Positions 2 to 61,455 of a stretch of DNA of 64,000 nt are shown piece after piece (position 1 is the stretch's first letter; the number at the start of each line of letters is the position of its first letter). Position numbers and translations under genes: made by a program. This stretch comes from Corynebacterium genitalium ATCC 33030 (lineage in GTDB: Bacteria > Actinomycetota > Actinomycetes > Mycobacteriales > Mycobacteriaceae): contig NZ_CM000961.1 in assembly GCF_000143825.1 (NCBI RefSeq), positions 957,672 to 1,021,671 on the forward strand. Direction: 5' to 3'. The notes beneath the pieces are model-generated. The model worked only from the letters and a program-made list of their open reading frames with translations. It had not been told where the DNA came from and searched no databases.

Positions 2-1324
2 CAGTCCTCGCCGCACATCGGGCACCTGCGTTCCGGAGTCGCGTTCGACATTGTGCGCCGCTGGTTCGCTGCGAACGGCAACGATGTGGCATTCGTGCGC
101 AATGTCACTGACATCGACGACAAGATCCTCACCAAGGCAGCGGAACACGACCGCCCCTGGTGGGAGTGGGTGTCCACGTACGAGCGCGAATTCAGCCGCG
201 CCTATGAGACGCTGGGCGTGCTCCCGCCGAGTGTTGAGCCGCGCGCAACGGGGCATGTCACGCAGATGGTCGACTACATGCAGCGGTTGATGGACAACGG
301 CTACGCGTATGCGGCGGACGGTTCTGTCTACTTCGACGTTGCGGCGTGGGTCGCAGCCGGCGGCGACTACGGGTCGCTGTCCGGCAACCGCGTCGAGGAC
401 ATGGAGCAGGGCGAGACAGACAACCGCGGCAAGCGAGGCGCGCACGACTTCGCGCTGTGGAAGGCGGCGAAGCCTGGTGAGCCGAGCTGGCCTACCCCGT
501 GGGGTGACGGCCGCCCGGGCTGGCACCTGGAGTGCTCCGCGATGTCGACGTGGTACCTGGGCGAGTCCTTCGACATTCACGGCGGCGGCCTCGACCTGAA
601 GTTCCCGCACCACGAGAATGAGCAGGCTCAGTCGCACGCCGCCGGCGACGGCTTCGCCCGCTACTGGATGCATAACCACTGGGTCACCATGGCCGGCGAG
701 AAAATGTCGAAGTCGCTCGGCAACGTGCTGTCCATCGACCGCATGCTTGAGGCGGTGCGCCCTGTCGAGCTGCGCTACTACCTGGGTTCCGCGCATTACC
801 GCAGCGTGCTCGAATATTCGCCGGAAGCGCTGCAAGAAGCGGCAGTTGCTTATCGACGCATCGAGGACCTTATCACCCGGGCCAGCGCCCTCGCCCCCGT
901 TGAACCGGGCCAGTGGACTGACGCTTTTGCAGACGCGATGAACGAGGACTTCAGCGTCCCGCGCGCCTTGGCCGAGATTCACAACACGGTCCGCGCCGCG
1001 AACAAGGCGCTCGCCGCCGGCGACACCGACGAAGCGACGCGTCTCGCCGGAGCAGTCCGCGCTATGGCAGGCGTGCTGGGTGTTGATCCGGTTGAGTGGG
1101 CAGGCCGCGCCGGCGCCGGCTCTGATTCCGCCGACACCGCCCGAGTGACTGAGGCGCTGGACGTGCTTGTGCGCGCCGAGCTGGACCGCCGCGCTGAGGC
1201 GCGTGCCGCAAAGGACTGGGCAACTGCCGACGCTGTGCGCGACCGCCTCACCGAAGCCGGCATTGAGGTCACGGACACCGCCGACGGCGCACAATGGTCC
1301 CTGAAGGAGAACAACAATGGCTAA
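2..1324 (+). CDS. cysS: cysteinyl-tRNA synthetase, 5'-truncated by window edge
   Basis: Class I aminoacyl-tRNA synthetase that charges tRNA-Cys in the cytoplasm. The reading frame is open from base 2; the true start lies upstream of the window. The HIGH signature (His-Ile-Gly-His) is encoded at 14-25 and KMSKS at 701-715, with the family's GWHLECSAM and HHENE zinc-site segments between them, followed by the C-terminal helical anticodon-binding part. The cysteine ligase MshC is a paralogue, but the full-length C-terminal domain and the downstream rlmB partner favour CysS. The stop overlaps the rlmB start by 8 bp, so the two genes are probably co-transcribed and translationally coupled. Confidence 0.96.
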
Positions 1325-2255
1325 ACCGTACGACCGGCCCGACAAGCAGAAGAAGAACAAGAAGGGCGCGACTAAGGGGTCCGGTGGTCAGCGCCGCCGC
1401 GGCCTCGCCGGCAAGGGCCCGACCCCGAAAGCGGAGGACCGCGTCTATCACGCCGCGCACAAGCGCAAGCTGGAGCGGCAGCGCCGCGACTCCGGACGGC
1501 ACGAGCGCGAGGAGGCCGACCTAGTCGTCGGCCGCAACCCCGTGGTGGAGTGCCTGCATGCGAAGGTGCCGTCGGAAGCTTTGCTCATCGCGCAGGGCAC
1601 CGGCCACGACGACCGGCTGAGCGAGGCCGTCCAGATGGCCAACACCCGCGGCATCCCTGTCCACGAGGTGCCTCGCCGCGACCTGGACAACATGACCGGC
1701 AACACCTTGCACCAGGGGATCGGCCTGAAGATCCAGCCGTACAAGTACGCCGACGTTTTCGACCTGATCGGGGGTGTGCGCGACCGTGGCGAGACCGGCA
1801 TGTTCGTCGTCCTGGACAACATCACCGACCCCCGCAACCTGGGTGCCGTCATTCGTTCGGCGGCGGCGTTCGGTGGTCACGGCGTCATCATTCCGGAGCG
1901 TCGTTCTGCCCAGGTGACGGGCGTTGCGTGGCGAACCTCCGCCGGCACCGCCGCCCGTCTCCCCGTTGCCCGCGCCACCAACCTCACCCGCACCATCAAG
2001 GAGTTCAAGGACAACGGCTACATGGTCGTCGGACTCGACGCCGGCGGCGAGCACACCCTGGACACGTTCGACGGCGCCACCGACCCGGTGGTCATCGTCG
2101 TTGGTTCTGAAGGCAAGGGAATCTCGCGGCTGGTTCGCGAGAACTGCGACGTCATCATGTCGATCCCCACCGCGGACTGGGTCGAATCCCTTAACGCATC
2201 CGTTGCCGCGGGCGTGGTGCTCAGCGAGTTCGCCCGCCAGCGCCGCGTGCAGTAG
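1317..2255 (+). CDS. rlmB: 23S rRNA (guanosine-2'-O)-methyltransferase, TrmH/SpoU family
   Basis: 312-aa SPOUT methyltransferase expected to 2'-O-methylate a 23S rRNA guanosine using S-adenosylmethionine. The first ~65 residues are a very basic Lys/Arg-rich extension typical of actinobacterial members. A substrate-binding domain follows (about 70-145), then the knotted SPOUT domain with NLGAVIRSA at 174-182, a GSEGKG motif near 262 and the C-terminal [10 protein letters not shown] signature. The ATG lies inside the end of cysS (ATGGCTAA), preceded by a GAAGGAG-like ribosome site within cysS. The cysS-rlmB pairing is common in actinobacteria. Confidence 0.93.
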
Positions 2256-2267
2256 TTCGGGCTGGCG

Positions 2268-3140
2268 CTACAGCCCGAAGAAGTTCGCAACGATCTCCGC
2301 GCCGACCACCTTGTCGGTGCCGGGGCCGAGCTTGTCGCTCATCTGCTTCGGGTTGGGGACGAGGTGGCCCATGCCTTCGATGGTCCACAGCTCGACGGGT
2401 GCCGCGCCGCTGGCAGCATCGACCGCTGGGGAGCCGGGTGCGCCGGGGCCGAAACGGTCCACGCGCACGCCGCTGACGGGCTGCGCGGAGACGGGCTCGG
2501 CATCCTCGCCCAGCCCGTTGAGCGTGGCGAAGAAACGTGCCGACTCGAGCGCCGCACGAGCCTGACCGCGGTTCGTGTCACCGATCCCGGACATGCCGCC
2601 GTCGTAGGGGACGAGCGGGTCGGCGGTGCCTTGGATGGAGAGGACGGGGGTGGGGGACCAGGCGTCGTAAAGCGGGCGCAGCTCGGGCAGAACGTTGTCC
2701 GCGGCCGGCCACGGCGAACCGAAGCACGCGATGCCGCTGAGTACTCCCGGGCGCTCGAGCGCGAAACGCTGCACCATCTGGCCGCCGTTGGAAAAGCCGC
2801 AGCCGATCACCCGGTCGGTTTCGTAGTGGGAGATCAGGGTGGTGAGGAAGGCGGTGTCGTCGACAAGCTCGCGGCGCGCGCGTTCCTGGAATCCGACGCG
2901 ATGGTCGTTGAAGTGCCGCCCCACGCCGTCGGGATACAGCACCACGCAGCCGCGGTCGGCGAACTCGTCGAACGTGTTGCCCGTGAAGTTGCGCGCGACG
3001 CTGCCGGATTGCAGCGAACCGTGCAGAAACAGAACCACGGGCGCGCCGGGGCGCGGCGAGTCCGGCAGCACCTCCGTGTAGCGGCGCTCGGTTCCGTTGC
3101 TGGTAAGGGTACGGCGGTTCACAATCACCCTGTTCACCAT
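2268..3140 (-). CDS. alpha/beta-hydrolase, polyhydroxybutyrate-depolymerase-like esterase
   Basis: 290-aa alpha/beta-hydrolase of the esterase/LpqC-like family; the substrate cannot be read from sequence. Visible motifs are the oxyanion-hole LHGS at 39-42, the nucleophile elbow GFSNGG at 115-120 (Ser117), an acid in the GTADPLVPYDG segment and a C-terminal GMGHLVP histidine. There is no convincing signal peptide, so it is probably cytoplasmic. The ATG at 3140 is supported by a TACCGT -10 element 7 nt upstream (leaderless start). It is convergent with rlmB and divergent from the LacI regulator, 18 bp apart. GTG codons at residues 2 and 5 are alternative starts. Confidence 0.8.
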   Translation of the reverse strand: MVNRVIVNRRTLTSNGTERRYTEVLPDSPRPGAPVVLFLHGSLQSGSVARNFTGNTFDEFADRGCVVLYPDGVGRHFNDHRVGFQERARRELVDDTAFLTTLISHYETDRVIGCGFSNGGQMVQRFALERPGVLSGIACFGSPWPAADNVLPELRPLYDAWSPTPVLSIQGTADPLVPYDGGMSGIGDTNRGQARAALESARFFATLNGLGEDAEPVSAQPVSGVRVDRFGPGAPGSPAVDAASGAAPVELWTIEGMGHLVPNPKQMSDKLGPGTDKVVGAEIVANFFGL

Positions 3141-3158: not shown

Positions 3159-4268
3159 ATGATGCAGAAGAAGGGCACGCTCGCATCCATCGCTGCTGAG
3201 TTGGGGGTCTCGCGCACGACAGTGTCGAACGCGTACAACCGGCCCGACCAGTTGTCAGATGTGCTGCGGGAGCGCATTTTCGCTGCGGCGGCTGCGCGCG
3301 GGTACACCGGTCCGGACCCGATGGCGCGGTCGTTGCGCACGCGGCGGGTCGGGGCGATCGGGGTGATTCTCACCGAGCACATGTCGTTCGCGTTCGAGGA
3401 TCTGGCGTCGATCGACTTTCTCGCGGGGCTCGGTGAGAGTTCGATGGGCACGCACAACGCGCTCACGCTCATCCCGCTTGGTCCGGATGGAGGCGAGTCA
3501 CCGCTGGTCGCCAGTGCGCTTGTCGACGGCTTCGTCGTCTACTCCGTTCCGTCTGCCGAACCCCACCTGGATGCCGTGCGTGCACGCGGCGTGCCGGTGG
3601 TGGTGTGCGACCAGCCGTACGACACCGGCGACGCGTTCGTCGGCATCGACGACCGGGCCGCGATCCGCGCGACCGCCGAAGCGCTTGTGGGGGCCGGGCA
3701 CCAGCGGATCGGCATTGCCGCGAAACGCCTGTTCTCGGACGAGTCACGCGAAGGCGCCGTCACCGCGGCGGACGTCGCGGAGGCGGACATGCACGTGCAG
3801 CGTGAGCGCATCCTCGGTGCGCTCGATGTGTTCGCAGGCGCAGAGATTTCCGGGGTGCCGATCGTGACCAGGCATTTCAATGACCATGCGACTGCAGTCG
3901 ATGCCGCTCGCGAGCTTTTCGACGCATCCCCCGACCTCACCGCGGTCCTCTGCACCACCGACTCCATGGCGCTGGGCGTGCTGGATTATTGCGCTACCCA
4001 AGGATGGGACGTGCCCGGGGATGTCTCTGTCACGGGGTTTGACGGAGTCGCGCCGGCGCTCACGCGCGGCCTCACCACCGTCATTCAGCCGAACAAGCGC
4101 AAAGGGGCGACGGTGGGCAAAGTGCTGGCCAAGCTTATCGACGCCAACCTCGACGACACCGCCGCTCCATCCGGGGCGGCCAGTGCGAGCCCGGACGCGG
4201 ACATCCCGCGCGTTATCCTGCCGACCCGGTTCAGCCCAGGGCGGACCGTCGCGCCGCCGCGAGAGTGA
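3159..4268 (+). CDS. ipsA: LacI-family transcriptional regulator, IpsA-like
   Basis: 369-aa LacI/GalR regulator. The N-terminal helix-turn-helix (about residues 7-26, LASIAAELGVSRTTVSNAYN) and hinge are followed by a periplasmic-binding-protein-like effector domain with typical CTTDSMALGVL and GFDG segments. In C. glutamicum the LacI regulator next to otsB is IpsA (Cg2910), the myo-inositol-responsive activator of ino1; orthology here rests on that gene position and is inferred. The ATG at 3159 is chosen because TACGGT lies 6 nt upstream; ATG 3162 is equally in frame. The frame stays open far upstream, but that part is antisense to the esterase. The 3' end overlaps otsB tail to tail by 38 bp. 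Confidence 0.78.
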   Translation: MMQKKGTLASIAAELGVSRTTVSNAYNRPDQLSDVLRERIFAAAAARGYTGPDPMARSLRTRRVGAIGVILTEHMSFAFEDLASIDFLAGLGESSMGTHNALTLIPLGPDGGESPLVASALVDGFVVYSVPSAEPHLDAVRARGVPVVVCDQPYDTGDAFVGIDDRAAIRATAEALVGAGHQRIGIAAKRLFSDESREGAVTAADVAEADMHVQRERILGALDVFAGAEISGVPIVTRHFNDHATAVDAARELFDASPDLTAVLCTTDSMALGVLDYCATQGWDVPGDVSVTGFDGVAPALTRGLTTVIQPNKRKGATVGKVLAKLIDANLDDTAAPSGAASASPDADIPRVILPTRFSPGRTVAPPRE

Positions 4269-5058
4269 CCAGGTAGTCGGCCATCTCGGCGACACCGCCG
4301 AGCCGGAACTGCGCCGCGGTATCTACTGTGGCGCTATCGCCAGTTGCAGCATCTGCAGCGGTACCTCTGGCTGCACTGCGGACGATCTTGATCCCCACAT
4401 CGCCGGCCGCGGGGTCGAGAACGGTCAGGGCGGTTTCGTCAGTCACGTCGTCACCGGCGAACAGGGTCGCGGTGTGTTTTTGTTTCTCGGCGCCGAGCCA
4501 GGTGCCCTTTGTCGTGTCGACGACGGAGAACTCGACGACATTGTGCCCGGGCGAGCCGGCGTTGCCGTGGAGGGTGTCGGGGGAGAGGGCGAGGGCTGCG
4601 TCGATAAGCGATTGGGCGCGCGCGGGATCGGATTCCGCGAGCTTCGCGACGTGTAGAACGCGCTGGTACGGCTTATTTTCCACGAACGCTGGGGCGCTGC
4701 CGGCGACGATCTCGTTCAGCCGCGCGCTCACGCGATCGAGATACGCGCGTTGCGCCCCATCGAGCTGCGGCCCACCCTCCGTCGGCTCCGCACCGTGTGA
4801 GCCGACGAGAATCACCGGCGCGTCAAGCGGACACACGATCCGCAGCCCATCGAGGTGGCGCCCGGATAGCACTGCGACCGTCGTATCGCGCATGAGCGAC
4901 AAATCCTCCAGCGCGGCGATCGCGTCCGGGTTGGGCGTGACGGCGTAGGCATCGGTGTGCAGCTCGCAGATCGTGCCGTCGAAATCAACGCAGACCAGCA
5001 GCTTCTTGGTGCGCGCAAGAGAGTCGAGTGCGGGGCGTGGGTCGAACGCGTCCGTCAT
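4231..5058 (-). CDS. otsB: trehalose-6-phosphate phosphatase
   Basis: 275-aa HAD-superfamily phosphatase that removes phosphate from trehalose 6-phosphate, the second step of the OtsAB route to trehalose (an osmolyte and mycolate carrier in corynebacteria). Catalytic DFDGT is at residues 25-29, followed by the LSGRHLDGL region and a C-terminal GDDVTDE Mg-binding motif. The ATG at 5058 overlaps the stop of the preceding lipoprotein gene (ATGA), making otsA - lipoprotein - otsB a coupled unit. The last 38 bp overlap ipsA on the other strand. Confidence 0.93.
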   Translation of the reverse strand: MTDAFDPRPALDSLARTKKLLVCVDFDGTICELHTDAYAVTPNPDAIAALEDLSLMRDTTVAVLSGRHLDGLRIVCPLDAPVILVGSHGAEPTEGGPQLDGAQRAYLDRVSARLNEIVAGSAPAFVENKPYQRVLHVAKLAESDPARAQSLIDAALALSPDTLHGNAGSPGHNVVEFSVVDTTKGTWLGAEKQKHTATLFAGDDVTDETALTVLDPAAGDVGIKIVRSAARGTAADAATGDSATVDTAAQFRLGGVAEMADYLVTLAAARRSALG

Positions 5059-5507
5059 CGTGCGACCAGCCTTATCGTCGGGGGATTGAGGTCGATCCCG
5101 TCACCGCGGCGGGCGGTCAGGGTGATTTCATCCTCACCGTACCGCCGCAGGTCGAACTCCGCGTCGGGGACGAGGATCTCAGAAAGCTGGGTGTGCAGGC
5201 GGCGGGATCCGCCGGCGCAGTCGCTGTCGAGCTTGCCGGTGGTGACGCCGCGCAGCTGCACGTCGCTATCGCTTATCGACGCCCCCGCCTGCAGCGGCGC
5301 GCACCCCGTCCGAGCCGTGAGCGACTCGCGGCCGAACACGATGACCGCGCGGCCGGCGGCGTCGAGCGGCACGTCGCCCGGGAAGTCGGGGTCGGTGTAG
5401 ACGGCGACGATCTCCCAGGTCGTGCCCGCCAGCGGGTGGGTCGGTGCGGAACAGCCGGCGAGCGCGGCGGCGGCAGCGACGGCGATGGCAGCAGCTCCGC
5501 GCTTCAT
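5055..5507 (-). CDS. small META-like lipoprotein between otsA and otsB
   Basis: 150-aa predicted lipoprotein. An N-terminal hydrophobic signal ends in a lipobox LAGC (lipidated Cys19). The mature part begins with a PLAGTTWEIVAVY segment resembling META/HslJ-type beta domains and contains paired cysteines (GCAPL, DCAGGS). I chose ATG 5507 because it overlaps the otsA stop (ATGA) and begins the signal peptide directly; a longer frame to 5543 would put 12 extra residues in front of the signal. Both ends are 4-bp overlaps, so its level should track OtsA and OtsB. Function is unknown; C. glutamicum also has an unassigned gene at this position. Confidence 0.8.
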   Translation of the reverse strand: MKRGAAAIAVAAAAALAGCSAPTHPLAGTTWEIVAVYTDPDFPGDVPLDAAGRAVIVFGRESLTARTGCAPLQAGASISDSDVQLRGVTTGKLDSDCAGGSRRLHTQLSEILVPDAEFDLRRYGEDEITLTARRGDGIDLNPPTIRLVAR

Positions 5508-6832
5508 GCGCGGGCCAACTCGTCGAGGAAAGACTCCGCCCATGCAGCGACATCGTGAGTAGTCACGTGCTCATTCATCGCACGCATCGCGTCGCGCGCT
5601 TCGGTCGAACCTTGCTTATCGACGGCCTCCACAATCGCCCCCTTCACCGACTCAATATCGAACGGATTGCACAGGTGAGCCTGGTCCAGCTCGACGGCCG
5701 CTCCGGCGAACTCCGAGAGCACGAGCGCCCCGGAACCGTCCGGGTGGCAGGCGACGTACTCTTTCGCGACGAGGTTCATCCCGTCCTTGAACGGTGTCAC
5801 CAGCATGATGTCGGCGGCGGAGTAGTAGCTGCGCAGCTGAGACTTCGGAACCGAGTGGTGCTCGTAGTGGACGACCGGGCGGCCGAGCTTGCCGTAGCGG
5901 CCGTTAATGCGGCCGACTGCTTCCTCAACACCCGCGCGGGTGGTCTTGTAGCTGGCGATGCGCTCGCGCGAGGGGGTAGCCACCTGAATCATTGCGATGG
6001 AATCGAGCCGGCCCTCCTGCAGCAACTCTTCGATCGCGGTGAGACGCTGGAGGATGCCTTTGGTGTAATCAAGCCGGTCGACGCCGAGCATGAGCGTGCG
6101 CGGGTTCGCCAGGGAGCCGCGGACCTGCGAGATATCCTTCTCATCCGCCGGGCTGAAACCGCCGTCACCGGTCTCGATCGAGATGGGAAACGTGCCGGTG
6201 CGCGGCGTTGTGGCGTGCGGGTCCTGGGCGGCGAGGTCCGTGAAGTTCATCTCGTCGCGCTTGCGTTGGAACCCGATGAGGTCTGCGCCCTCCAGGCCGC
6301 GGAGCACGTCGCGGCGCCACGGCAGCTGGCGGAACAAGTCTGGGCTGGGGAAGGGGATGTGCAGGAAGAATCCGATTGTCAGGTCTGGGCGCAGCTTTTT
6401 GAGCATCCCGGGGACCAGCTGCAGCTGGTAGTCCTGCACCCACACCGTCGCGCCTTTGCCGGCAGTGCTTGCTGCTGCTTGCGCGAACTTCTTGTTCACG
6501 GCTTTGTAGCGCTGCCACCACGAACGGTCGTAGGTCGGCTTCACGATGAGGTCGTGGTACAGCGGCCACAACGTCGAGTTGGAAAAGCCCTCGTAGAACT
6601 CCTCGAAATCATCCTGGTCCAACTCGACCGGGTGGAGGGTGATGCCGTCATTTTCAAACGGCTCGAAGCTGGCGTCAGGTTCGCCCGGCCATCCGACCCA
6701 GCAACCGCTGTTGCGCTTGAGCACCGGGGCGAGCGCCGCAACGAGCCCGCCTGGCGACGCCACCCACTGGCCGTCCACCCGGTCGACCGGGAGGCGGTTT
6801 GCCACCACCACAAACTGGTTGTCGCCGCTCAT
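5504..6832 (-). CDS. otsA: trehalose-6-phosphate synthase
   Basis: 442-aa GT20 glycosyltransferase joining UDP-glucose and glucose 6-phosphate. Visible motifs are VVVANRLPVDR at the N terminus, SPGGL near residue 26, WVQDYQLQLVP, the sugar-nucleotide motif GVDRLDYTKGI, and DGMNLVAKEYVAC near the C terminus. Length is slightly below the E. coli enzyme but normal for corynebacteria. First gene of the otsA - lipoprotein - otsB unit. It contains one antisense copy of the 11-bp word GCTTATCGACG (5614-5624), read here as Val-Asp-Lys. Confidence 0.96.
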   Translation of the reverse strand: MSGDNQFVVVANRLPVDRVDGQWVASPGGLVAALAPVLKRNSGCWVGWPGEPDASFEPFENDGITLHPVELDQDDFEEFYEGFSNSTLWPLYHDLIVKPTYDRSWWQRYKAVNKKFAQAAASTAGKGATVWVQDYQLQLVPGMLKKLRPDLTIGFFLHIPFPSPDLFRQLPWRRDVLRGLEGADLIGFQRKRDEMNFTDLAAQDPHATTPRTGTFPISIETGDGGFSPADEKDISQVRGSLANPRTLMLGVDRLDYTKGILQRLTAIEELLQEGRLDSIAMIQVATPSRERIASYKTTRAGVEEAVGRINGRYGKLGRPVVHYEHHSVPKSQLRSYYSAADIMLVTPFKDGMNLVAKEYVACHPDGSGALVLSEFAGAAVELDQAHLCNPFDIESVKGAIVEAVDKQGSTEARDAMRAMNEHVTTHDVAAWAESFLDELARA

Positions 6833-7424: not shown

Positions 7425-9074
7425 CTAATCAGTCGGCCGGACGTCAGGCTGCGCTTTGGGCTCCGTCTTGGGTTCAGACTTAGATTTGAACTGAACTCCG
7501 GTATGCGTCTCGGTTTGCCCCTTCGACTGATTCTTTGATTGGGTCTTGGCCTGAATCTTGGCTTGGTTTTTGGCCTGGTTCTTGGCCAGGTTGCGGGCGG
7601 CCTGCTCGCTGAGTCGTCGAGAAGCGGCTTGCTCGGCGCGACGAATCTGCTGGAACGTCACGCGCCCGGCGGCGCGGAAGGCACGGTACGGGTTGAACAG
7701 CTGCGGGCGGCGCAGGCGGCGGGCGAACCACTCGCCGAGGACCACGCCACCGGCCAGCGCCAGACACGTGCCGATGGCCAAGAAGAGGTTATTCAAACCA
7801 AGAACGGTTTGTTCGTTGAGCAGTGCGTACATGCTGCGGTAGACACCTGAACCCGGCAGGAACGGGGTCACGCCGGCGACTGCGGTGATCAGGGGGGCGA
7901 TCAGGAAGCGGCGGGCGAGCAAACCACCGGCTAAGCCGACCATGACCGCACAAATCGCGGTGGCGAACAACCGGCCGGAGCCGAAGGGAATGAGCACGGC
8001 GTAGTACGCGAAGCCACCGATGAAAGCGGTCACAGCGGTGACCACGATGGCGCGTCGTTCGGCGTAAACAGCAAGCGCGAAACCGGCGGCGGCGGCTGTG
8101 CCACCGAAGATGCGCACGGCGGCGGAACTGTACGTCGGAGTTGGCGGTTGCGTCTCGATCGGCGGCAAACCGGCACCGAATAGGTCCGCGACTTGAATGC
8201 CTATGGCTACGCCCGCGACGATCGCGCCGGTGTTGAGAAGCGCTGCGAAGAAACGCCCCGACGCTGTCACTGGTGATCCCGTGACACCGTCTTGAAGTGA
8301 TTGCACCAGTGTCAAACCGGCGAGCAAGACCACGATGCCTGTTGCGATGACCTGGCTGGGCACAATGGTTGTGCCAGCCCGGGCGGCCAGGGTGTAGAAC
8401 AAGGTGGCGGGCACCGTGGCTACGAAACCGCCGAGGACGCAATGATAGAAGTACGGCAGCTCTTTCTTCCCCAGCCACGCGTTGATCGAGGTGATCAGGG
8501 CGGCGGTGAACGCACCCAGCACCGACATGAACCAGTCGCCGCCGAGCAAGATCGAGATGGCCGCGCCCATAATCGACCATCCGGCGATGGAGACCCACAG
8601 CGGGTAGGGCGGTTTGGCGTTGTACAGGTCGTCGAGAATCTTCTCCGCCATCTCCGGCGGCGTCGCACCGGCGCGGATCGAGCGGATCAGACGGTCGACT
8701 TCCTGGAGTTTGGAGTAGTTCTCCGACATGTCGGACACGACGCGGAACACGCCCACCGGCTGCTTGCGGGCGGTGCCGATCAGCGAGTTGACGGTAATGG
8801 TGTTCAGCGTGATGTCCACGTGGCAGTAGTGCAGGCCGTACGACGATGTGACGGCGTGGATCTGCGCTTTCGCGTCCGAACTGGTTGTGCCGTTGGCGAT
8901 GAGAATCTCGCCGACGCGCGCGCCGATGGTCATCACCGCGGCGACCTGTGCCGGGTCGGTCAGGTCGACGGGCGCGAGCACCGACGGCGGGGGCGACGTG
9001 CGGGCTTGGTCAATGGTCGCCACTGGGCCGGAGGAGCGCAACGCCTCCCGCAAGTTCTTCAACACCGTTGTCAC
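7425..9074 (-). CDS. thrE: threonine/serine exporter ThrE
   Basis: 549-aa inner-membrane exporter of L-threonine and L-serine (ThrE family), longer than the ~489-aa C. glutamicum protein. A soluble N-terminal domain (to about 180) carries the conserved VGEILIANGTTSSDAKAQI and CHVDITLNTI segments; about ten hydrophobic helices follow. The extra length is a hydrophilic C-terminal tail made of repeated K-N-Q-A/S units (AKNQAKNQAKIQAKTQSK). Start is GTG 9074. A tRNA-Thr gene begins 118 bp away in the opposite direction. Same context as C. glutamicum thrE near otsA. Confidence 0.92.
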   Translation of the reverse strand: MTTVLKNLREALRSSGPVATIDQARTSPPPSVLAPVDLTDPAQVAAVMTIGARVGEILIANGTTSSDAKAQIHAVTSSYGLHYCHVDITLNTITVNSLIGTARKQPVGVFRVVSDMSENYSKLQEVDRLIRSIRAGATPPEMAEKILDDLYNAKPPYPLWVSIAGWSIMGAAISILLGGDWFMSVLGAFTAALITSINAWLGKKELPYFYHCVLGGFVATVPATLFYTLAARAGTTIVPSQVIATGIVVLLAGLTLVQSLQDGVTGSPVTASGRFFAALLNTGAIVAGVAIGIQVADLFGAGLPPIETQPPTPTYSSAAVRIFGGTAAAAGFALAVYAERRAIVVTAVTAFIGGFAYYAVLIPFGSGRLFATAICAVMVGLAGGLLARRFLIAPLITAVAGVTPFLPGSGVYRSMYALLNEQTVLGLNNLFLAIGTCLALAGGVVLGEWFARRLRRPQLFNPYRAFRAAGRVTFQQIRRAEQAASRRLSEQAARNLAKNQAKNQAKIQAKTQSKNQSKGQTETHTGVQFKSKSEPKTEPKAQPDVRPTD

Positions 9075-9273: not shown

Positions 9274-9284
9274 GCTTATCGACG
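9274..9284 (+). repeat. 11-bp word GCTTATCGACG, intergenic copy
   Basis: Exact copy between tRNA-Thr and the stop codon of the convergent HNH gene, 8 bp after the tRNA. One of 22 exact copies in the window; the full list is in the findings. Confidence 0.9.
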
Positions 9285-9285
9285 C

Positions 9286-10413
9286 CTACGCCGCCGTCGC
9301 CCCCACCGTCTCCGCGCCAGCGCGGGGCGGGCCGAACAGTGAACGCATCGCGCCGTACGGGTGTCGGTTATTGGGGCGTTCGTAACCCCTGGGGGAGACC
9401 CATACTGGGGTGCCGCCGCGCATTTCGATGCGGCCGCGGGTGGCGCGCTGCGGGTCATCGTCGTTGACGCGGTTGTGGTAGCGGCACAACGGTGCGAGGT
9501 TGCCGATGTTGGTTTCCCCGCCGTCTTTCCACGGCGTGATGTGGTGGATTTCGCAGTGGTCGGCGGCGTGCCGGCAGTCGGGGCTGGTGCAGACGGGCTG
9601 CGTCGCGGCGGCAAGGTCGCGCTGTTTCTGGTTGGCGAAGCGCTCGTCGCGGTAGAGGTTCACTGCGCCTTCCGTGGGGTGGAATAGGGCGGCCTCGAGA
9701 CCGTACTCAGGTTTCGCGTGGTAGCGGGCAAGGTACTCGGCGCCGGTGATGGTGGTGCCGTTGGTCAGTCCGAGGGTGACGTCGTCGCCGTGGCCGCTGA
9801 GGATCTTCGTCCATTCGGGCAGCGGGATGAGCAACAGTGGTCTGGGCACGGCGTACGGGACTCCGCCGCCGTTGCGTATCAGGTCGAGGAAGCGTTCGAG
9901 CAGTTGCCCGGCGACGGGCCGTGTGGCGTCGAGGGCCTTGTTCATCAACGCTGCTTCGAGGTCGGCGATGTCGTGCTCGTCTGCGGTGATGATCATGGTG
10001 CGCCGCCCGTGGCGCGAGCCGGAGATGGTGATCCGCTTCTGCGGCGGCGTGTCGGCCCCGGGGAGGAGCTTCTTTACCAGCGCGTTGAGTGCCCGGTAGT
10101 CGCCCGCGGATTCGAGCAGCCGCACGCGCAGCTTGTTGCGTGCTTTGGGGCTTTTGATCTTCGCGATCTGGCGCTCAATGAGCGCAAGCTTATCGACGCT
10201 CAAACCCCGCCTCCTCGCCACTTCCCCCGCCGTTCTCTGCTTAGCGGGGGAGGTGGTGGGACCGTAGTACGCCTCGTGGACGCGTTTCCAGTTGCGGATG
10301 GTTGCTTCGGAGAATCCTGCGCTGAGAAGCTTCTGGCGGTCGAAGTCTTTCAAGTGGTCAAGAGCGTTGGTGGTCAGTGCTGAGATGAGGTTGTCGAGTC
10401 CCATGGCGAACAC
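9286..10413 (-). CDS. HNH endonuclease-domain protein (DUF222-type architecture)
   Basis: 375-aa protein with a long helical N-terminal region and a C-terminal HNH nuclease motif: CTSPDCRHAADHCEIHH, then CRYHNRVNDDD, with two Cys pairs able to bind zinc. This 'DUF222 plus HNH' layout is abundant and often multi-copy in corynebacteria and mycobacteria; its biological role is not established. I place the start at GTG 10413, which has GAGGGG 6 nt upstream; ATG 10404 is an alternative, and the frame remains open to 10590 without a ribosome site. It contains an antisense GCTTATCGACG copy at 10188. Confidence 0.8.
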   Translation of the reverse strand: MFAMGLDNLISALTTNALDHLKDFDRQKLLSAGFSEATIRNWKRVHEAYYGPTTSPAKQRTAGEVARRRGLSVDKLALIERQIAKIKSPKARNKLRVRLLESAGDYRALNALVKKLLPGADTPPQKRITISGSRHGRRTMIITADEHDIADLEAALMNKALDATRPVAGQLLERFLDLIRNGGGVPYAVPRPLLLIPLPEWTKILSGHGDDVTLGLTNGTTITGAEYLARYHAKPEYGLEAALFHPTEGAVNLYRDERFANQKQRDLAAATQPVCTSPDCRHAADHCEIHHITPWKDGGETNIGNLAPLCRYHNRVNDDDPQRATRGRIEMRGGTPVWVSPRGYERPNNRHPYGAMRSLFGPPRAGAETVGATAA

Positions 10414-32750: not shown

Positions 32751-32819
32751 GCTCGCTTAAGCGCACCCCGTTTTTATGTGGTGGGGTGCGTTTTCGCGTT
32801 GCCGCGCAGCTTATCGACG
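32742..32819. repeat. inverted pair of the 11-bp word enclosing a terminator
   Basis: CGTCGATAAGC (32742-32752) and GCTTATCGACG (32809-32819) are exact inverted copies. Between them CGCACCCC (32762-32769) and GGGGTGCG (32783-32790) make an intrinsic terminator followed by TTTT, at the meeting point of convergent genes. The arrangement recalls paired uptake sequences acting at terminators in Neisseria and Haemophilus. Confidence 0.85.
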
Positions 32820-45757: not shown

Positions 45758-45771
45758 CGATCCGTTGAAGC

Positions 45772-50184: not shown

Positions 50185-51969
50185 ATGGTCGCAGATCGCG
50201 CAAACAGCGAAGACAGCAGGAACAACACGAGCACCGGCAGCACCAGAATCAGCCTCAGTAAGGCCGAGGGCAGTCGCCGCAGCGCCGCCGAGAAGCCGTG
50301 GCTGCGCTTCTACCCGGAGTGGACCGACCACACGTTGGACTACGGCGACGACACGCTGGCGGACCTCTACGACAAGAATCTCGCGGTGAACGGGCGGAAG
50401 CCGGCGACGCGGTTCTTCGGCAGGTCCATGACCTATGCTCAGCTCGACGAGCAGGTCCGCCGTGCTGCCGACGGGTTGCGCAAGGTCGGGGTGGCCCAGG
50501 GCGACCGCGTGGCCATCATGCTGCCGAACTGCCCACAGCACGTCGCGGCATTTTTCGCCGTACAGAAGCTCGGCGCGGTCGTGGTGGAGCACAACCCGCT
50601 CTACACGGCGAATGAGCTGCGCCCCCAGTTCAACGATCACGGTGCCAAGGTCGCTGTGGTCTGGGATAAGGCCGCCGACACGGCGAAAAAACTCGCGAAA
50701 GACACCCCGCTGGAGACGATCGTCAGCGTGGACATGACAAAGGCGATGCCCCTGGTGCAGCGGGTGGCGTTGCGGGTGCCCGTCGGAAAGCTCAAGGAAG
50801 CGCGCGCGTCGCTGACAGCGCCGACGAATGACACGCTGCCGTGGGAGAGGTTCCTCGGCGAACCCCGCGCGATCGACACGCCGCGCATGCTTAGCGACGA
50901 CCCCGCCCTCATCCTCTACACCTCCGGCACCACCGGAAGCCCCAAGGGTGCGCCGCTGACGCACCGCAACTTGCTGGCCAACCCGATCCAGGGGCGCGCG
51001 TGGGTCAAGGAGCTGCAGGAACCCGGCCAGCGCATGCTGGCCACGCTGCCGTTCTTCCATGCTTACGGTCTGACGTTCTCGTTGACGCTGACGTTCCTCA
51101 TCGGCAGCGAACTGATCTTGCTGCCCGCCCCGACGATGGACCTGATCATGGGCGCGATGAAGAAAAAGAACCCGCCGACGTTCGTGCCGGGTGTGCCTAC
51201 CGTATTTGAGCGCATTGTGTCGACGGCTGAGGAAGAAGGCTCGGACATGTCCGCAGTACAGACGGGCTTCTCTGGCGCGTCATCGCTGCCGGCGGAGGTC
51301 ATCGAGGGCTGGGAGAAGGCGACCGGCGGCCGGCTCGTGGAGGGCTACGGGCTGACAGAGACGTCGCCGATTCTCATCGGTAACCCGCCGACGGATGATC
51401 GCCGGCCCGGGTACATCGGCATCCCGTTCCCGGACACGGAAATCCGCATTGCCGACCCCGATAACCTCGACGAGGAAATGCCCTACGGTGAGGCCGGCGA
51501 GATCCTGGCCAAGGGGCCGCAAGTCTTCGGCGGGTACCTGAACAACGATGAGGCGTCAGCCACAGTCTTCCACGACGGCTGGTTCCGCACCGGCGACATG
51601 GGCGTGATGGATGAAGACGGCTTCATCAAACTGGTCAGCCGCATCAAAGAGCTGATCATCACCGGCGGGTTCAACGTCTACCCGGCGGAAGTGGAAGAGA
51701 CGTTGCGCACGCACCCAGACATCGAGGAGGTCACCGTGGTTGGTCGTCCCCGCACGGACGGTTCCGAGGACGTCGTCGCGTGCGTGGTGCTGGCGGAGGG
51801 CACGAAGCTCGACCCGGACGGCCTGAAAGAATTCGCGCGTGAGAACCTCACCCGGTACAAGGTGCCGCGCACCTTCTACCACTTTGAGGATCTGCCGAAA
51901 GATCAGCTAGGTAAGATCCGCCGCCGCGAGGTGCGTGACGCGCTACTCGCCCGCATCGACGGCGAATAG
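50185..51969 (+). CDS. long-chain acyl-CoA ligase (AMP-binding)
   Basis: 594-aa adenylate-forming enzyme activating a carboxylic acid, probably a fatty acid, to acyl-CoA. Signature LYTSGTTGSPKGAPLTHRN, then VEGYGLTETSPI, GWFRTGDMGVMDEDGF and a C-terminal KDQLGKIRRREVRD lysine loop. A polar N-terminal extension of ~40 residues. ATG 50185 is 7 nt after TAGGGT, favoured over ATG 50152. FadD-like; chain preference unknown. Confidence 0.9.
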   Translation: MVADRANSEDSRNNTSTGSTRISLSKAEGSRRSAAEKPWLRFYPEWTDHTLDYGDDTLADLYDKNLAVNGRKPATRFFGRSMTYAQLDEQVRRAADGLRKVGVAQGDRVAIMLPNCPQHVAAFFAVQKLGAVVVEHNPLYTANELRPQFNDHGAKVAVVWDKAADTAKKLAKDTPLETIVSVDMTKAMPLVQRVALRVPVGKLKEARASLTAPTNDTLPWERFLGEPRAIDTPRMLSDDPALILYTSGTTGSPKGAPLTHRNLLANPIQGRAWVKELQEPGQRMLATLPFFHAYGLTFSLTLTFLIGSELILLPAPTMDLIMGAMKKKNPPTFVPGVPTVFERIVSTAEEEGSDMSAVQTGFSGASSLPAEVIEGWEKATGGRLVEGYGLTETSPILIGNPPTDDRRPGYIGIPFPDTEIRIADPDNLDEEMPYGEAGEILAKGPQVFGGYLNNDEASATVFHDGWFRTGDMGVMDEDGFIKLVSRIKELIITGGFNVYPAEVEETLRTHPDIEEVTVVGRPRTDGSEDVVACVVLAEGTKLDPDGLKEFARENLTRYKVPRTFYHFEDLPKDQLGKIRRREVRDALLARIDGE

Positions 51970-51974: not shown

Positions 51975-52559
51975 CTAGTCCCAGATGCCGAGGTTCATGA
52001 GGATCGCGCCGTCGTCACGCACGAGCGCGAGGTCGCCTTCCTCGGCTTGAGGGATCTCACGGATGAGGCGCTGGATCCGCAGCTGGTAGCGCTTTTCCTC
52101 GCCGTCGACGGTGAGAGTGCCCACGGAGTTGAGCATGTCGTGGTTCTCAACGACCACGTTATCGACTGTGACATCCTCACTGCCCGTGCCGCGGACGGCG
52201 AAGATCGGCGAGGTCTCAGAGAAGTCTGCACCGTTGTCGCCGGTCAGGATCACCTGCGCGAATTCGCGCACTGCGACAGGGTCTGCTGTCAGGTGTGCCA
52301 CGGAGCGGCGGCCGAGGACGGAGTGGGTAAGGGGCGTCAGCTCGTCGTCAAGCGCCATGTCTTCCTCGCGGTAGCTGAAGCCGCACTGCGTGAGGTTGCC
52401 CTCGTTGTCGGGGCCGACGAGCACCTCGATGCCGACTTTGTCGTCGCGGTCGTACGCGCGGTAGGAGCCGTCGACCTGGGTGATCCTCGAGAATTGGTTG
52501 GCGAATTCGTCTTTGGTGGGGTGGAGTTCTGCGTCGCTGTAGATGTTTGCGGTAGCCAT
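51975..52559 (-). CDS. maltokinase N-terminal-cap-like domain protein
   Basis: 194-aa protein resembling the stand-alone 'maltokinase N-terminal cap' family of actinobacteria: an AELHPTKDEFANQF opening, GSYRAYDRDDKVGIEVL, and a CGFSYREEDM strand. It lacks a kinase domain. Function unknown; the family name is from similarity as I remember it and needs a profile search. TACAGT lies 7 nt before ATG 52559. Convergent with the acyl-CoA ligase. Confidence 0.6.
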   Translation of the reverse strand: MATANIYSDAELHPTKDEFANQFSRITQVDGSYRAYDRDDKVGIEVLVGPDNEGNLTQCGFSYREEDMALDDELTPLTHSVLGRRSVAHLTADPVAVREFAQVILTGDNGADFSETSPIFAVRGTGSEDVTVDNVVVENHDMLNSVGTLTVDGEEKRYQLRIQRLIREIPQAEEGDLALVRDDGAILMNLGIWD

Positions 52560-52582: not shown

Positions 52583-53359
52583 ATGGCAGAGCTCGCCGTT
52601 GCTTTCGGATTCAGCTTGTTCGCAGGCTTATCGACGGGCCTCGGCGGCCTCATCGTCGCCCTCAAGAACACTCCCAGCCAGCGCTTCTTGGCGGGAGCTC
52701 TCGGTTTGTCCGCCGGGGTTATGGTGTTCGTCTCCCTGGTGGAACTGCTCCCGGAAGGGGTGGACGGGCTCAGCGAGGCGGGACGCAGCCGCCCCGACGT
52801 GTGGGCCGCGGTCGCTTTCTTCGCCGGTATTGCGCTCATCGCTGTCATTGACCGGTTCGTACCGGAAGAGATCAACCCGCATGAGGGGCCGGACGTGCGC
52901 GCCGCCGGCCGGATGCGCCGGGTGGGGGTGATGACGGCGCTGGCAATCGCCATTCACAACTTCCCCGAAGGCTTCGCCACCTTCTTTGTCGCGCTGCAGG
53001 ATCCGGCGTTCGCGCTGCCCATCGCGGTGGCCATTGCGATCCACAACATTCCCGAAGGCATCGCGGTGGCGGTGCCCATGCGTGAAGCGACGGGTTCTAA
53101 GTGGCGCGCGGCGTGGTGGGCAACACTGTCGGGTCTGGCGGAGCCACTCGGCGCGGTGGTGGGCTACCTGCTTCTGCGGCCGTTCATTGGTCCCGAGGCG
53201 CTCGGTGTCGTGTTCGCGGCAATCGCGGGAGTAATGGTGTTTGTGAGCATCGACAAGCTGCTGCCCACCGCCATTGAGACCGGCCGACACCACACCGCCA
53301 TATACGGTTTTGTCGCCGGCATGGCTGTGATGGCAGTGAGCTTGCTTTTGCTCGCCTAG
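52583..53359 (+). CDS. zupT: ZIP-family divalent metal transporter
   Basis: 258-aa membrane protein with eight predicted helices. The paired ZIP metal-site motifs AIHNFPEGFATF and AIHNIPEGIAVAV lie in helices 4 and 5, as in ZupT (zinc and other divalent cations). A His/Glu-containing cytoplasmic loop separates helices 3 and 4. Leaderless-type start after TAGGCT. It contains a GCTTATCGACG copy at 52626 read in a third frame (Gly-Leu-Ser-Thr). Confidence 0.9.
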   Translation: MAELAVAFGFSLFAGLSTGLGGLIVALKNTPSQRFLAGALGLSAGVMVFVSLVELLPEGVDGLSEAGRSRPDVWAAVAFFAGIALIAVIDRFVPEEINPHEGPDVRAAGRMRRVGVMTALAIAIHNFPEGFATFFVALQDPAFALPIAVAIAIHNIPEGIAVAVPMREATGSKWRAAWWATLSGLAEPLGAVVGYLLLRPFIGPEALGVVFAAIAGVMVFVSIDKLLPTAIETGRHHTAIYGFVAGMAVMAVSLLLLA

Positions 53360-54830: not shown

Positions 54831-54868
54831 GCCCCGAGGGTTTCCTCGGGGCTTTTTGCTTATCGACG
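54831..54868 (+). terminator. tRNA-Asp terminator ending in an 11-bp-word copy
   Basis: Stem GCCCCGAGG / CCTCGGGGC, then CTTTTTG; the T-run passes directly into GCTTATCGACG (54858-54868), so the word sits at the expected 3' end of the transcript. Confidence 0.85.
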
Positions 54869-57985: not shown

Positions 57986-57996
57986 CGTCGATAAGC
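57986..57996 (-). repeat. 11-bp word GCTTATCGACG, intergenic copy after cysK
   Basis: Exact copy read on the - strand, 5 bp past the cysK stop and upstream of cysE. Confidence 0.9.
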
Positions 57997-59319: not shown

Positions 59320-60162
59320 ATGGATCCGCACCGGGTCAAGGACGATGAGGACGCAATCCGCGCCTCGCTGACGTCCCTTAAGACCGCGACCGGAATCCCG
59401 GTGGCCATGTACGGCACACTGCTTGCAGACAACCGGCTGCAGATCACCCAGTGGGTGGGGCTGCGCACAACGTCGCTGCATAACTTGGTTCTGGATCCGA
59501 ACCAGGGCGTCGGCGGGCGTGTTGTGGCTACCCGTCGCGCGGTGGGCGTGTCCGATTACACCCGCGCGAACGTCATCTCCCACGAGCACGACGTATCGAT
59601 CCAGGATGAAGGCTTGCACTCTGTGGTCGCTGTGCCTGTCATCGTGCAGCGCGAAATCCGCGGCGTCCTGTACGTAGGTGTGCATTCACCCGTGCGGCTG
59701 GGGGAGAAGGTCATCGAGGAAGTCACGATGACAGCGCGCACGCTTGAGCAAGACCTCGCGGTCAACTCCGCTTTACGACGAGCCGAGGGCGGCAAAACTG
59801 CCACCGCTAAGACCGGCCGCGTGATGAACGGGGCCGAGTGGGAACAGGTGCGTGCGACCCACTCCAAGCTGCGCATGCTGGCGAACCGTGTGGAGGAAGG
59901 TCCGGTCCGCAAGGAGCTGGAGCAGCTGTGTGACCAGATGGTCTCCCCGGTGCGTGTCAAACAGGCGACGAAGCTGTCTGCTCGTGAGCTGGACGTTTTG
60001 TCGTGCGTCGCTTTGGGGCATACGAACGTGGAGGCCGCCGAAGAAATGGGCATCGGCGCAGAGACGGTGAAGTCCTACCTCCGCAGCGTGATGCGCAAGT
60101 TAGGAGCCCACACGCGCTACGAGGCTGTGAACGCCGCACGCCGGATTGGCGCACTGCCCTAA
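59320..60162 (+). CDS. ramA: LuxR-type regulator of acetate/carbon metabolism RamA
   Basis: 280-aa regulator with a GAF-like N-terminal domain (about 15-150) and a C-terminal LuxR helix-turn-helix (about 217-262: [20 protein letters not shown], then [20 protein letters not shown]). In C. glutamicum RamA activates acetate-uptake, glyoxylate-shunt and sugar genes and sits beside cysK, exactly as here. ATG 59320 has GAAGGAGAACGA upstream. Confidence 0.92.
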
Positions 60163-60184
60163 AACTTTCATTACCCTGGGTGCC

Positions 60185-61441
60185 GTGAAACAGCGATTTC
60201 TGGTCCAAGGTGGCACCCGTCTGCAGGGCTCGGTGCGAGTTGAAGGCGCGAAGAACAGTGTGCTCAAGCTCATGGCAGCGGCCCTTCTCGCGGAGGGAAC
60301 AACGACCCTGAACAACTGCCCCGAGATTCTCGACGTCCCGTTGATGAAGAAGGTTCTCGAGGGCTTGGGCTGCCAAGTGGAGATTGACGGCACAGTCGTG
60401 CGCATCCACTCGCCAGCGTTCATCTCATCTCGTGCTGACTTCGACGCGGTGCGGCAGTTCCGTGCGTCGGTAGCGGTGCTCGGGCCGCTCACTGCGCGCT
60501 GCGGCGAGGCCATCGTTGCGCTGCCCGGTGGAGACGCGATCGGTTCACGTCCCCTGGATATGCACCAATCGGGTTTGGAGAAGCTCGGTGCGACGACGCA
60601 CATCGAGCACGGCGCTGTGGTTGCCCGCGCGGACAAACTGCGCGGTGCGAAGATCAGCCTCGACTTCCCGTCCGTGGGCGCAACAGAGAACATTCTCACG
60701 GCCTCGGTTCTTGCGGAAGGTCAGACGATTCTGGACAACGCCGCCCGCGAGCCTGAGATTGTGGATCTGTGCGAGATGCTCAATGAGATGGGCGCGCGGA
60801 TCCAGGGTGCGGGCACGTCGACCATCACTATCGACGGCGTGGAGTCGCTTCGCCCGACGGAGCACACCGTCGTCGGTGACCGCATTGTCGCAGGCACCTG
60901 GGCCTACGCGGCCGCGATGACCCAGGGTGACGTGACAGTCGGCGGCATCGCCCCGCGTCACCTCCACCTCGCTTTGTCAAAGCTGCGGACTGCAGGCGCT
61001 GACGTGGAGACCTACGACCAGGGCTTCCGCATCCGGATGAATCGCCGCCCTCAGGCGGTGGACTACCAGACGTTGCCGTTCCCCGGCTTTCCTACTGACC
61101 TTCAACCCATGGCTATCGGCTTGAGCGCTATCGCCGACGGCACATCGGTGATCACGGAGAACGTCTTCGAATCGCGTTTCCGCTTTGTCGACGAAATGCT
61201 CCGCCTGGGTGCTGACGCCACCGTTGACGGCCACCACGTTGTCCTGCGCGGCGTGAACGAACTCTCCTCCACCGACGTGTGGTCCTCCGATATCCGTGCA
61301 GGCGCCGGCCTTGTTCTCGCTGGTCTTGTCGCCGATGGGCAGACCGTCGTCCACGATGTCGAGCACATCGACCGCGGTTACCCCTACTTTGTCGAGAGCC
61401 TCAATGCGCTCGGCGCCAACGTGCAACGAATTAGCGTTTAA
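60185..61441 (+). CDS. murA: UDP-N-acetylglucosamine 1-carboxyvinyltransferase, Asp-type
   Basis: 418-aa enoylpyruvate transferase starting peptidoglycan synthesis. Lys-Asn pair in [10 protein letters not shown] at residues 22-23. The catalytic loop reads [14 protein letters not shown]: residue 117 is Asp where most bacteria have Cys (E. coli Cys115). The same Cys-to-Asp change is known in M. tuberculosis and Chlamydia, where it gives intrinsic fosfomycin resistance while keeping activity. GTG start 7 nt after TACCCT. It follows ramA by 22 bp but has its own promoter. Confidence 0.95.
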
Positions 61442-61444
61442 AAC

Positions 61445-61455
61445 GCTTATCGACG
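61445..61455 (+). repeat. 11-bp word GCTTATCGACG after murA
   Basis: Exact copy starting 3 bp past the murA stop codon. The last copy in the window; none occurs in the rRNA. Confidence 0.9.

Follow-up and report, generated by a model that had tools for sequence, protein, structure and literature searches.

The word GCTTATCGACG is probably the preferred form of a candidate DNA-uptake sequence of Corynebacterium. The uptake-like reading is based on a genome-wide excess, strand balance, dialects with a common core, scarcity in plasmids and the presence of competence genes. At the level of sequence, these features support the likeness to the uptake sequences of Haemophilus and Neisseria, over Chi or KOPS, that an earlier note on this DNA had proposed. 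The motif fits a 'self' tag that would favour the bacterium's own kind of DNA on uptake from outside.

Frequency, form and orientation of the motif

The stretch analysed, here called the window, comprises 64,000 nt of Corynebacterium genitalium ATCC 33030 (GCF_000143825.1, NZ_CM000961.1, forward-strand 957,672 to 1,021,671). All the coordinates that the earlier note gave for 22 exact copies of GCTTATCGACG were right, 13 forward and 9 reverse (Table 1), compared with 0.07 copies expected from dinucleotide shuffles and 0.20 under an order-4 Markov model. Whatever the word length, from 8 to 12 bases, the most over-represented words of the window were GCTTATCGACG, its sub-words or its extensions. 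The whole genome contains 527 copies, 262 forward and 265 reverse, and the reversed word used as a control was found on neither strand (0 + 0). In a 464-kb sample, 115 copies were seen where 1.3 were expected by the order-4 Markov model. The over-representation claimed from the window therefore holds and had been understated; counts across the genome are not near expectation, but far higher.

The full motif is GCTTNNCGACG, an 11-base core in which a middle AT is preferred. It occurs 1,514 times in the genome and 46 times in the window, as 22 exact and 24 degenerate copies. The degeneracy at positions 5 and 6 of the core, and the 24 added GCTTNNCGACG copies in the window, had been missed in the earlier note. 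Using a simple gene caller, we placed 17 of the 22 exact copies in genes and 5 between them, close to the 18 previously said to touch genes. The exact word has a density of 0.249 per kb in intergenic or gene-edge DNA and 0.228 per kb in coding DNA, and copies are spread fairly evenly across the sampled 36.6% of the chromosome.

Table 1. Exact and degenerate copies of the motif in the window
Class	Word	Position	Strand	Context
exact	GCTTATCGACG	848..858	+	inside class I (C) tRNA-synthetase-like gene
exact	GCTTATCGACG	4133..4143	+	
exact	GCTTATCGACG	4599..4609	-	
exact	GCTTATCGACG	5271..5281	+	
exact	GCTTATCGACG	5614..5624	+	
exact	GCTTATCGACG	9274..9284	+	intergenic
exact	GCTTATCGACG	10188..10198	+	
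exact	GCTTATCGACG	12075..12085	-	
exact	GCTTATCGACG	19522..19532	-	
exact	GCTTATCGACG	25805..25815	-	inside purL-like gene
exact	GCTTATCGACG	32742..32752	-	intergenic
exact	GCTTATCGACG	32809..32819	+	faces opposite to copy starting 67 bp earlier (32742)
exact	GCTTATCGACG	33895..33905	-	
exact	GCTTATCGACG	34876..34886	+	
exact	GCTTATCGACG	35842..35852	-	
exact	GCTTATCGACG	36639..36649	+	
exact	GCTTATCGACG	37002..37012	-	
exact	GCTTATCGACG	48280..48290	+	
exact	GCTTATCGACG	52626..52636	+	
exact	GCTTATCGACG	54858..54868	+	intergenic
exact	GCTTATCGACG	57986..57996	-	intergenic
exact	GCTTATCGACG	61445..61455	+	intergenic
degenerate	GCTTTACGACG	2663..2673	-	
degenerate	GCTTGTCGACG	2858..2868	-	
degenerate	GCTTGTCGACG	3518..3528	+	
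degenerate	GCTTTTCGACG	3914..3924	+	
degenerate	GCTTCGCGACG	4641..4651	+	
degenerate	GCTTCTCGACG	7615..7625	-	
degenerate	GCTTGTCGACG	13580..13590	+	
degenerate	GCTTCTCGACG	14489..14499	+	
degenerate	GCTTCACGACG	17491..17501	-	
degenerate	GCTTGCCGACG	17857..17867	+	
degenerate	GCTTGCCGACG	22054..22064	-	
degenerate	GCTTTTCGACG	22910..22920	+	
degenerate	GCTTGACGACG	23934..23944	+	
degenerate	GCTTGCCGACG	26174..26184	+	
degenerate	GCTTGTCGACG	29498..29508	+	
degenerate	GCTTGCCGACG	30288..30298	+	
degenerate	GCTTGACGACG	42656..42666	-	
degenerate	GCTTTTCGACG	46207..46217	+	
degenerate	GCTTGACGACG	47243..47253	+	
degenerate	GCTTGACGACG	48775..48785	-	
degenerate	GCTTTCCGACG	50781..50791	-	
degenerate	GCTTAGCGACG	50889..50899	+	
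degenerate	GCTTGACGACG	52343..52353	-	
degenerate	GCTTTACGACG	59770..59780	+	

On the 3′ side of the core lies a one-sided, C-rich and G-poor tract of about 30–35 bases, alike at sense, antisense and intergenic copies. The tract is also present in genomes G070, G036, G022 and G099; it was absent from the 30 copies of motif-positive G188 and not evident in the 18 copies of G054. The base following the word had been described as usually C or G. At +12 in the 115-copy sample C does lead (C 41, A 30, G 23, T 21), but the preference is weak and G falls behind A. We attribute the preference for C to the longer 3′ tract.

The balanced orientation seen in the window extends to the whole genome, and GCTTNNCGACG is divided equally between strands over 242 Corynebacterium genomes (94,203 forward, 94,263 reverse). 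Outside genes there is no replication polarity, 38 intergenic or gene-edge copies being oriented with replication and 39 against. Within genes, orientation bias tracks gene direction. Copies less than about 1 kb apart tend to face opposite ways, which to our knowledge is no known trait of uptake sequences; this would be explained if each copy served DNA on one side of it. Inverted pairs were considered as terminators and rejected, since pairs no more than 60 bp apart numbered only 14 in 859 kb, of which 6 faced opposite ways.

Distribution in the genus and on plasmids

On most chromosomes of the genus Corynebacterium the motif occurs in hundreds to some two thousand copies, spelled in species-specific ways. 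Exact GCTTATCGACG reached at least 30 copies in 160 of the 242 genomes, and GCTTNNCGACG was enriched in 173, taking at least three times the reversed control as the cut-off. A one-base dialect, GCTTNNCGATG, with GATG for GACG, was enriched in 17 of the other 69 (159–1,184 copies). The remaining 52 genomes contained 32–87 copies of the GATG form and were without clear enrichment, four of them being borderline. A de novo word search of ten genomes with few copies of the AT form gave words in the same frame for five of them (GCTTTGCGACG, GCTTGACGACG, GCTTTCCGACG, GCTTGTCGACG and GCTTGCCGACG), that of G054 being weak with 5 copies; no clear word emerged from 80 kb each of G123, G008, G021, G206 and G131. 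Among 217 sampled genomes from other genera of the order, none had more than 10 exact copies. On a ComEC tree of 21 rows, for which there is a long-branch warning, the dialect requires two or more changes. At orthologous places, a site in one species is matched in another by a near-miss without insertion, for example GCTTATCGACG and GCTCGTCGGCG.

Plasmids depart from this pattern. In 358 kb of small contigs from 15 motif-rich genomes, only 7 copies of the motif were found where 122.3 were expected, and the exact word was absent (0 versus 26.7 expected). No phage matched the initial 20 kb of the window, and no Corynebacterium phage appeared in the listed tallies by organism for WhiB and Lsr2 protein queries.

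Alternative explanations

There is a negligible chance that the enrichment arose through mutation bias or through a preference for the codon pairs of Leu-Ile-Asp and Val-Asp-Lys. In favour of such an origin, the frame CTT-NNC-GAC is strongly preferred in genes, being taken by 169 of the 187 sense copies of the 464-kb sample. However, 92 of 95 in-frame CTT-ATC-GAC triplets are flanked by G and G, which lie outside those codons and would be expected in about 14% of cases given the base frequencies of these positions. CTT accounts for some 10% of leucine codons, yet Leu-Ile-Asp triplets use it in no fewer than 100 of 159 cases, and antisense and non-genic copies occur at similar density. Codon-pair preference is thus refuted as a full explanation, in agreement with the original view that a protein motif cannot account for the word. 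Equally hard to credit is descent of the copies from a family of mobile repeats or insertion elements. A copy number in the hundreds would suit such remnants, but the flanks are alike in base composition only, and at orthologous places a near-miss, with no insertion, faces the site. The lack of the motif on plasmids weighs against both explanations.

It is improbable that the motif is a chromosome-wide site bound by a protein of nucleoid, segregation or condensin type, although several observations agree with this. The spread over the sampled chromosome is fairly even, the positions are strict as in a protein site, and near-absence from plasmids would follow because a host protein that organises or marks the chromosome needs no site on them. 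Sites of the KOPS or ter type are polar or occur in clusters, unlike the 38:39 split outside genes, and neither a one-base dialect that changed at least twice nor 52 of 242 congeners without clear enrichment is expected of a housekeeping site. Less probable still, and very unlikely in our estimation, is a Chi-like recombination hotspot for a RecBCD- or AdnAB-type enzyme. Chi words, too, are over-represented, chromosomal and species-specific, but they are biased with replication. Also a poor match for Chi are so strong an excess (115 copies for 1.3 expected in the 464-kb sample), a core as long as 11 bases, the C-rich tract on the 3′ side and neighbours that face opposite ways. Chi and KOPS resemble the Corynebacterium motif as short over-represented chromosomal words; both are polar relative to replication, whereas the Corynebacterium word is non-polar outside genes.

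Competence genes, a proposed mechanism and known systems

The C. genitalium genome carries ComEA, ComEC, DprA and a Tad pilus locus. ComEC was found in 241 of 242 Corynebacterium genomes, a Tad ATPase scored over the cut-off in 232 of 242, and DprA was present in all 80 genomes tested, 52 of them motif-poor, with three motif-poor matches weak or split. Since ComEC, T2SSE/Tad ATPase and DprA are near-universal and occur with or without the motif, the presence of the motif cannot be predicted from the machinery, and gene presence was discarded as a discriminator between motif-rich and motif-poor genomes. Tad-ATPase scores are weaker in many motif-poor genomes, which may only mark a clade. In nine genomes of each dialect, residue 199 of ComEA (own numbering) was the sole ComEA column with one fixed residue per dialect; the dialects also shared no residue at two other columns of ComEA and at 12 of ComEC, but residues there were mixed. 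Residue 199 was dropped as a dialect reader because the separation failed with 37 rows (15 + 22), a set in which the G106 row was in the wrong frame and from which G128 was excluded, no ComEA C-terminus having been found. Literature searches yielded no report of natural transformation or uptake for Corynebacterium.

In the DNA-uptake reading, a putative surface receptor, together with the Tad/Flp pilus and ComEA-ComEC, would prefer motif-bearing DNA. This DNA would enter single-stranded and recombine into the chromosome via DprA and RecA, the latter having a known role in recombining entered DNA. Copies would spread and persist on the chromosome because uptake favours fragments carrying them, and would be kept on both strands, within and between genes. 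Plasmids, spreading by other routes, would not gather copies. Dialects could arise from a changed receptor preference, and in motif-poor species the preference would have been lost, the copies then decaying. We know of no sequence-selective uptake system outside the Pasteurellaceae and Neisseriaceae, and literature searches gave no contradiction. On balance we lean towards Corynebacterium having a complete system of this kind, the first outside those families, in which a putative receptor on a Tad-pilus competence machine would read, directionally, a core with a one-sided C-rich tract in two main dialects switched at least twice.

If so, DNA uptake with self-recognition would be a genus-wide habit of Corynebacterium, shared by industrial, skin and pathogenic species. 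Uptake sequences would then have a separate origin in a phylum distant from both known families, with a different type of pilus. The motif would provide a cheap handle, as a known tag to add to donor DNA. With 190 species positive for the motif, in two dialects, and 52 poor in it (four borderline), the genus also offers a large natural experiment for a receptor hunt.

The uptake signal sequence (USS) of H. influenzae consists of a core and a one-sided, AT-rich extended flank; the flank is one-sided in Corynebacterium also, but C-rich. The candidate Corynebacterium uptake motif differs further from the USS in its unrelated sequence, actinobacterial host and Tad/Flp-type pilus genes. Both have a short core in hundreds to thousands of copies and favour one orientation in reading frames, the USS of H. 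influenzae and other Pasteurellaceae being described as without general genome bias (van Passel 2008, PMC2346458). The Neisseria DUS, for which ComP has been described as the receptor, is likewise reported to have a genus- or family-wide core with species dialects and some members without it (Frye 2013, PMC3630211), and its distribution in mobile elements is atypical compared with the chromosome (Hughes-Games 2020, PMC7371117), as in Corynebacterium. The Corynebacterium motif differs from it in sequence and phylum, the degenerate middle NN of the core, the C-rich 3′ tract and the opposite facing of close neighbours. Micrococcus luteus, like Corynebacterium an actinobacterium with comEA, comEC and a Tad/Flp locus, is naturally transformed by means of Flp/Tad pili with ComEA-ComEC (PMC6370729, PMC6667448); PMC6667448 nowhere uses the term 'uptake sequence', and the passages on M. 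luteus in the review PMC6370729 name none.

Copy number and definition of the word

The earlier note had counted 22 exact copies of the 11-bp word in the window and judged them far in excess of chance. All 22 were present, 13 forward and 9 reverse, and dinucleotide-preserving shuffles of the window (64,000 bases, 63% GC) gave a mean of 0.07 copies and a maximum of 1. An order-4 Markov model of the window predicted 0.20 exact copies, and at every length from 8 to 12 the most strongly over-represented words were the word itself or parts or extensions of it. The enrichment was genome-wide, as the note had proposed to check: in the genome from which the window comes (G000, a single contig of 2,349,853 bases) the exact word was found 262 times forward and 265 times in reverse, and the word read backwards was absent from both strands. 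In a 464-kb sample, consisting of the window and 20 stretches of G000, 115 exact copies were observed against 1.3 expected.

One-base variants in the 464-kb sample were scarce (0-3 copies each) at positions 1, 2, 4 and 7-11. Position 5 was tolerant, its variants having 25, 30 and 34 copies, as was position 6 (5-11 copies), and at position 3 only the G variant was frequent (16 copies). This defines the core as GCTTNNCGACG, in which AT is the preferred middle. This degenerate word has 771 + 743 copies in G000, compared with 47 + 42 for the reversed pattern, giving a density of one per ~1.55 kb. The window contains 46 copies; a long gap between them is listed in the table.

Gene context, orientation and flanking sequence

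Codon-pair preference had been named in the earlier note as the competing explanation. In the G000 sample, in-gene copies favoured the frame CTT-ATC-GAC and followed gene direction. We examined 673 genes, called with a simple caller made for this analysis rather than taken from an annotation. A G lies directly before and directly after 92 of the 95 CTT-ATC-GAC triplets, against ~14% expected, and these flanking Gs belong to neighbouring codons. Of 159 Leu-Ile-Asp triplets, at least 100 use CTT, which accounts for about one-tenth of leucine codons. The exact word has about the same density in genes (0.228 per kb) and outside them (0.249 per kb, edges of genes counted in). Codon-pair preference thus fails to explain the word, and the motif is not a codon effect. 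Nor is it a replication signal. The origin and terminus of G000 were placed at ~0.67 Mb and ~1.72 Mb from the GC skew of the sample, read by eye and with some local exceptions; outside genes, edges included, 38 copies ran with replication and 39 against it. The balanced orientation described in the note also held, both for the exact word in G000 (262/265) and for the degenerate word summed over 242 Corynebacterium genomes (94,203 forward, 94,263 reverse).

Neighbouring copies tended to face opposite ways. Of the 522 pairs of neighbours in 859 kb of G000, 314 were in opposite orientation (p = 4e-6), where 242 +/- 11.5 were expected from gene strands, and the excess lay at spacings below ~1-1.5 kb. 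Four other genomes (G070, G036, G022 and G099) together gave 312 opposite pairs out of 516 (p = 2e-6); taken singly, G070 and G022 were significant, G036 showed a trend only (p 0.12) and G099 did not reach significance (p 0.57). Below 1 kb the opposite fractions were 0.84, 0.64, 0.78 and 0.51 respectively, compared with 0.43-0.60 for four control words, whose numbers were small save for one (0.50 of 128). Our guess is that the opposite facing of close copies might reflect a directional step in uptake.

On the 3′ side of the word in G000, from +12 to ~+45, the word-bearing strand is C-rich and G-poor (peak C 0.55, G 0.17; base line 0.32 for each), while on the 5′ side the composition is flat. 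The tract was alike beside sense, antisense and intergenic copies, and weaker or missing beside words altered at strict positions. Since it is independent of the position of the copy and fades at altered words, it is part of a DNA element and not a product of codon usage. It recurred in two closely related named records, L079 and L080 (12 and 10 copies, respectively), with C 0.54 and G 0.13-0.16. It was weaker in G237, G070 and G056, present in G036, G022, G099 and, over a longer stretch, G070, not seen in G188 and not clear in G054.

Spread in the genus, dialects and plasmids

Exact-word counts in the 242 genomes ranged from 0 to 782, with at least 30 copies in 160 and at most 15 in 77. GCTTNNCGACG was at least three times as frequent as its reversed control in 173 genomes and less than twice as frequent in 65. 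In the other four (G102, G123, G139 and G231) it was just 2-3 times as frequent; these could be decaying motif sets. Ten genomes with few copies of the AT form were searched de novo (80 kb each), and five of them yielded words in the same frame: GCTTTGCGACG in G056 and G070, GCTTGACGACG plus two others in G237, GCTTGTCGACG and GCTTGCCGACG in G188, and a weak GCTTTCCGACG in G054. No word emerged from the 80 kb of each of the other five.

One-mismatch matches in G001 and G004 suggested GCTTATCGATG, which was then counted across the genus. Among the 69 genomes not enriched for the main, GACG spelling, GCTTNNCGATG, the one-base GATG dialect, ranges from 159 to 1,184 copies in 17 and from 32 to 87 in the other 52; G024 has 1,337 copies and G000 only 53. 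By these cuts 190 of the 242 genomes are motif-positive. On a ComEC protein tree of 21 members, for which the tree program warned of some long-branch joins, the GATG dialect requires at least two changes. Outside the genus, the exact word, which alone was counted, reached at most 10 copies in any of 217 genomes of the same order.

Orthologous sites, a comparison proposed in the earlier note, were examined around the Tad locus in the two relatives, a small sample at 70-86% DNA identity. For L079, 12 own copies were mapped, of which 3 were exact, 1 was a variant and 8 were not conserved, and 5 copies were present only in L079; for L080, 4 of 5 mapped copies were conserved and 2 were present only there. 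Sites differed by substitutions in near-miss sequence or by gaps in the alignment.

GCTTNNCGACG occurred 16 times, or 2.5 per 100 kb, in 16 named Corynebacterium plasmids, which total 630 kb with long plasmids read up to 50 kb; the reversed control occurred 10 times there. A matched test used 358 kb, the smaller contigs of 15 motif-rich genomes that each comprise two or three contigs (one 1,450-base contig masked). These had 7 copies where 122.3 were expected at the host rate, and no exact word where 26.7 were expected, host sizes being rounded to 0.1 Mb. Seven of these contigs have all sampled 31-mers in common with named plasmids; their hosts, all motif-rich, are C. atrinae G013, C. aurimucosum G016, C. 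comes G031, C. doosanense G040, C. marinum G103, C. maris G104 and C. occultum G121. The seven plasmid records (296 kb, three read only to 50 kb) gave 12 copies against 89.3 expected, in a test overlapping that of the small contigs. From their size, we infer that the remaining small contigs are plasmids.

Competence genes and known uptake systems

In G000, comEA (SLBB and HhH domains), comEC and a holA-like gene are consecutive at locus L028. A Tad/Flp locus, L038, encodes CpaE-like, TadA, TadB and TadC proteins, a DUF4244 pilin-like protein and two small proteins named TadE/TadF-like from their position and look. DprA is also present. The Tad ATPase is 81-82% identical in two Corynebacterium sp. 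records.

Coordinates of the motif gap and of genes at or near competence loci
Genome or locus	Coordinates	Feature
Window	37013-46206	9-kb gap with one degenerate copy; genes look ordinary (transport permease, dihydrouridine synthase)
L038 (G000)	14185-15579	IS3-type transposase gene adjoining the Tad locus
G022	1730569-1731228	ComEA, ~8 kb from ComEC and not adjacent to it
G022	1722008-1722796	ComEC
G128:C2	1654250-1655060	N-terminal ComEA-like match only, no HhH part beside ComEC-like sequence (protein search)
G123:C1	543012-543797	ComEC match with one in-frame TGA; genome borderline for the motif

ComEC was found in 241 of the 242 genomes, the Tad ATPase scored above the cut-off in 232, and DprA was found in all 80 genomes tested. 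Those 80 included every one of the 52 motif-poor genomes, among which three matches were weak or split. The machinery is thus near-universal, and its presence does not predict the motif. Tad ATPase scores were clearly weaker than in most motif-rich genomes in the motif-poor G007, G011, G018, G021, G037, G050 and G241, among others, which may be a clade effect. The sole genome without a ComEC match, G185 (assembly 90% complete), yet has 211 GATG-dialect copies. G128, a GATG-dialect genome with 625 copies, possibly has a broken ComEA. With ComEA considered as a dialect reader, one of its residues matched the dialect in 18 genomes and failed on a larger set.

The genomic signal is real, strong and genus-wide, with sequence-level signs of a DNA-uptake sequence. 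It is likely that the motif works like the DNA uptake sequence (DUS) of Neisseria or the uptake signal sequence (USS) of Haemophilus and the Pasteurellaceae, and we regard it as a candidate DUS, not a proven one. To our knowledge, no DNA-uptake sequence was known before in this phylum, the actinobacteria. No paper on a Corynebacterium uptake sequence was found in the literature searched, whose coverage, lacking most subscription papers and all preprints, makes this weak evidence; the two papers retrieved by searching text for the word were unrelated.

Several features of known systems are relevant here. Transformation by Flp pili in Micrococcus luteus is reported to involve genes of the kinds present in G000, such as comEA, comEC and a Tad/Flp locus (PMC6370729), and in the Pasteurellaceae the reader is predicted to be a minor pilin (PMC12616744). 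Like the Corynebacterium motif, the uptake sequences of the Neisseriaceae have dialects (PMC3630211), known uptake sequences favour one orientation in reading frames with no general orientation bias (PMC2346458), and they are atypically distributed in mobile elements (PMC7371117).
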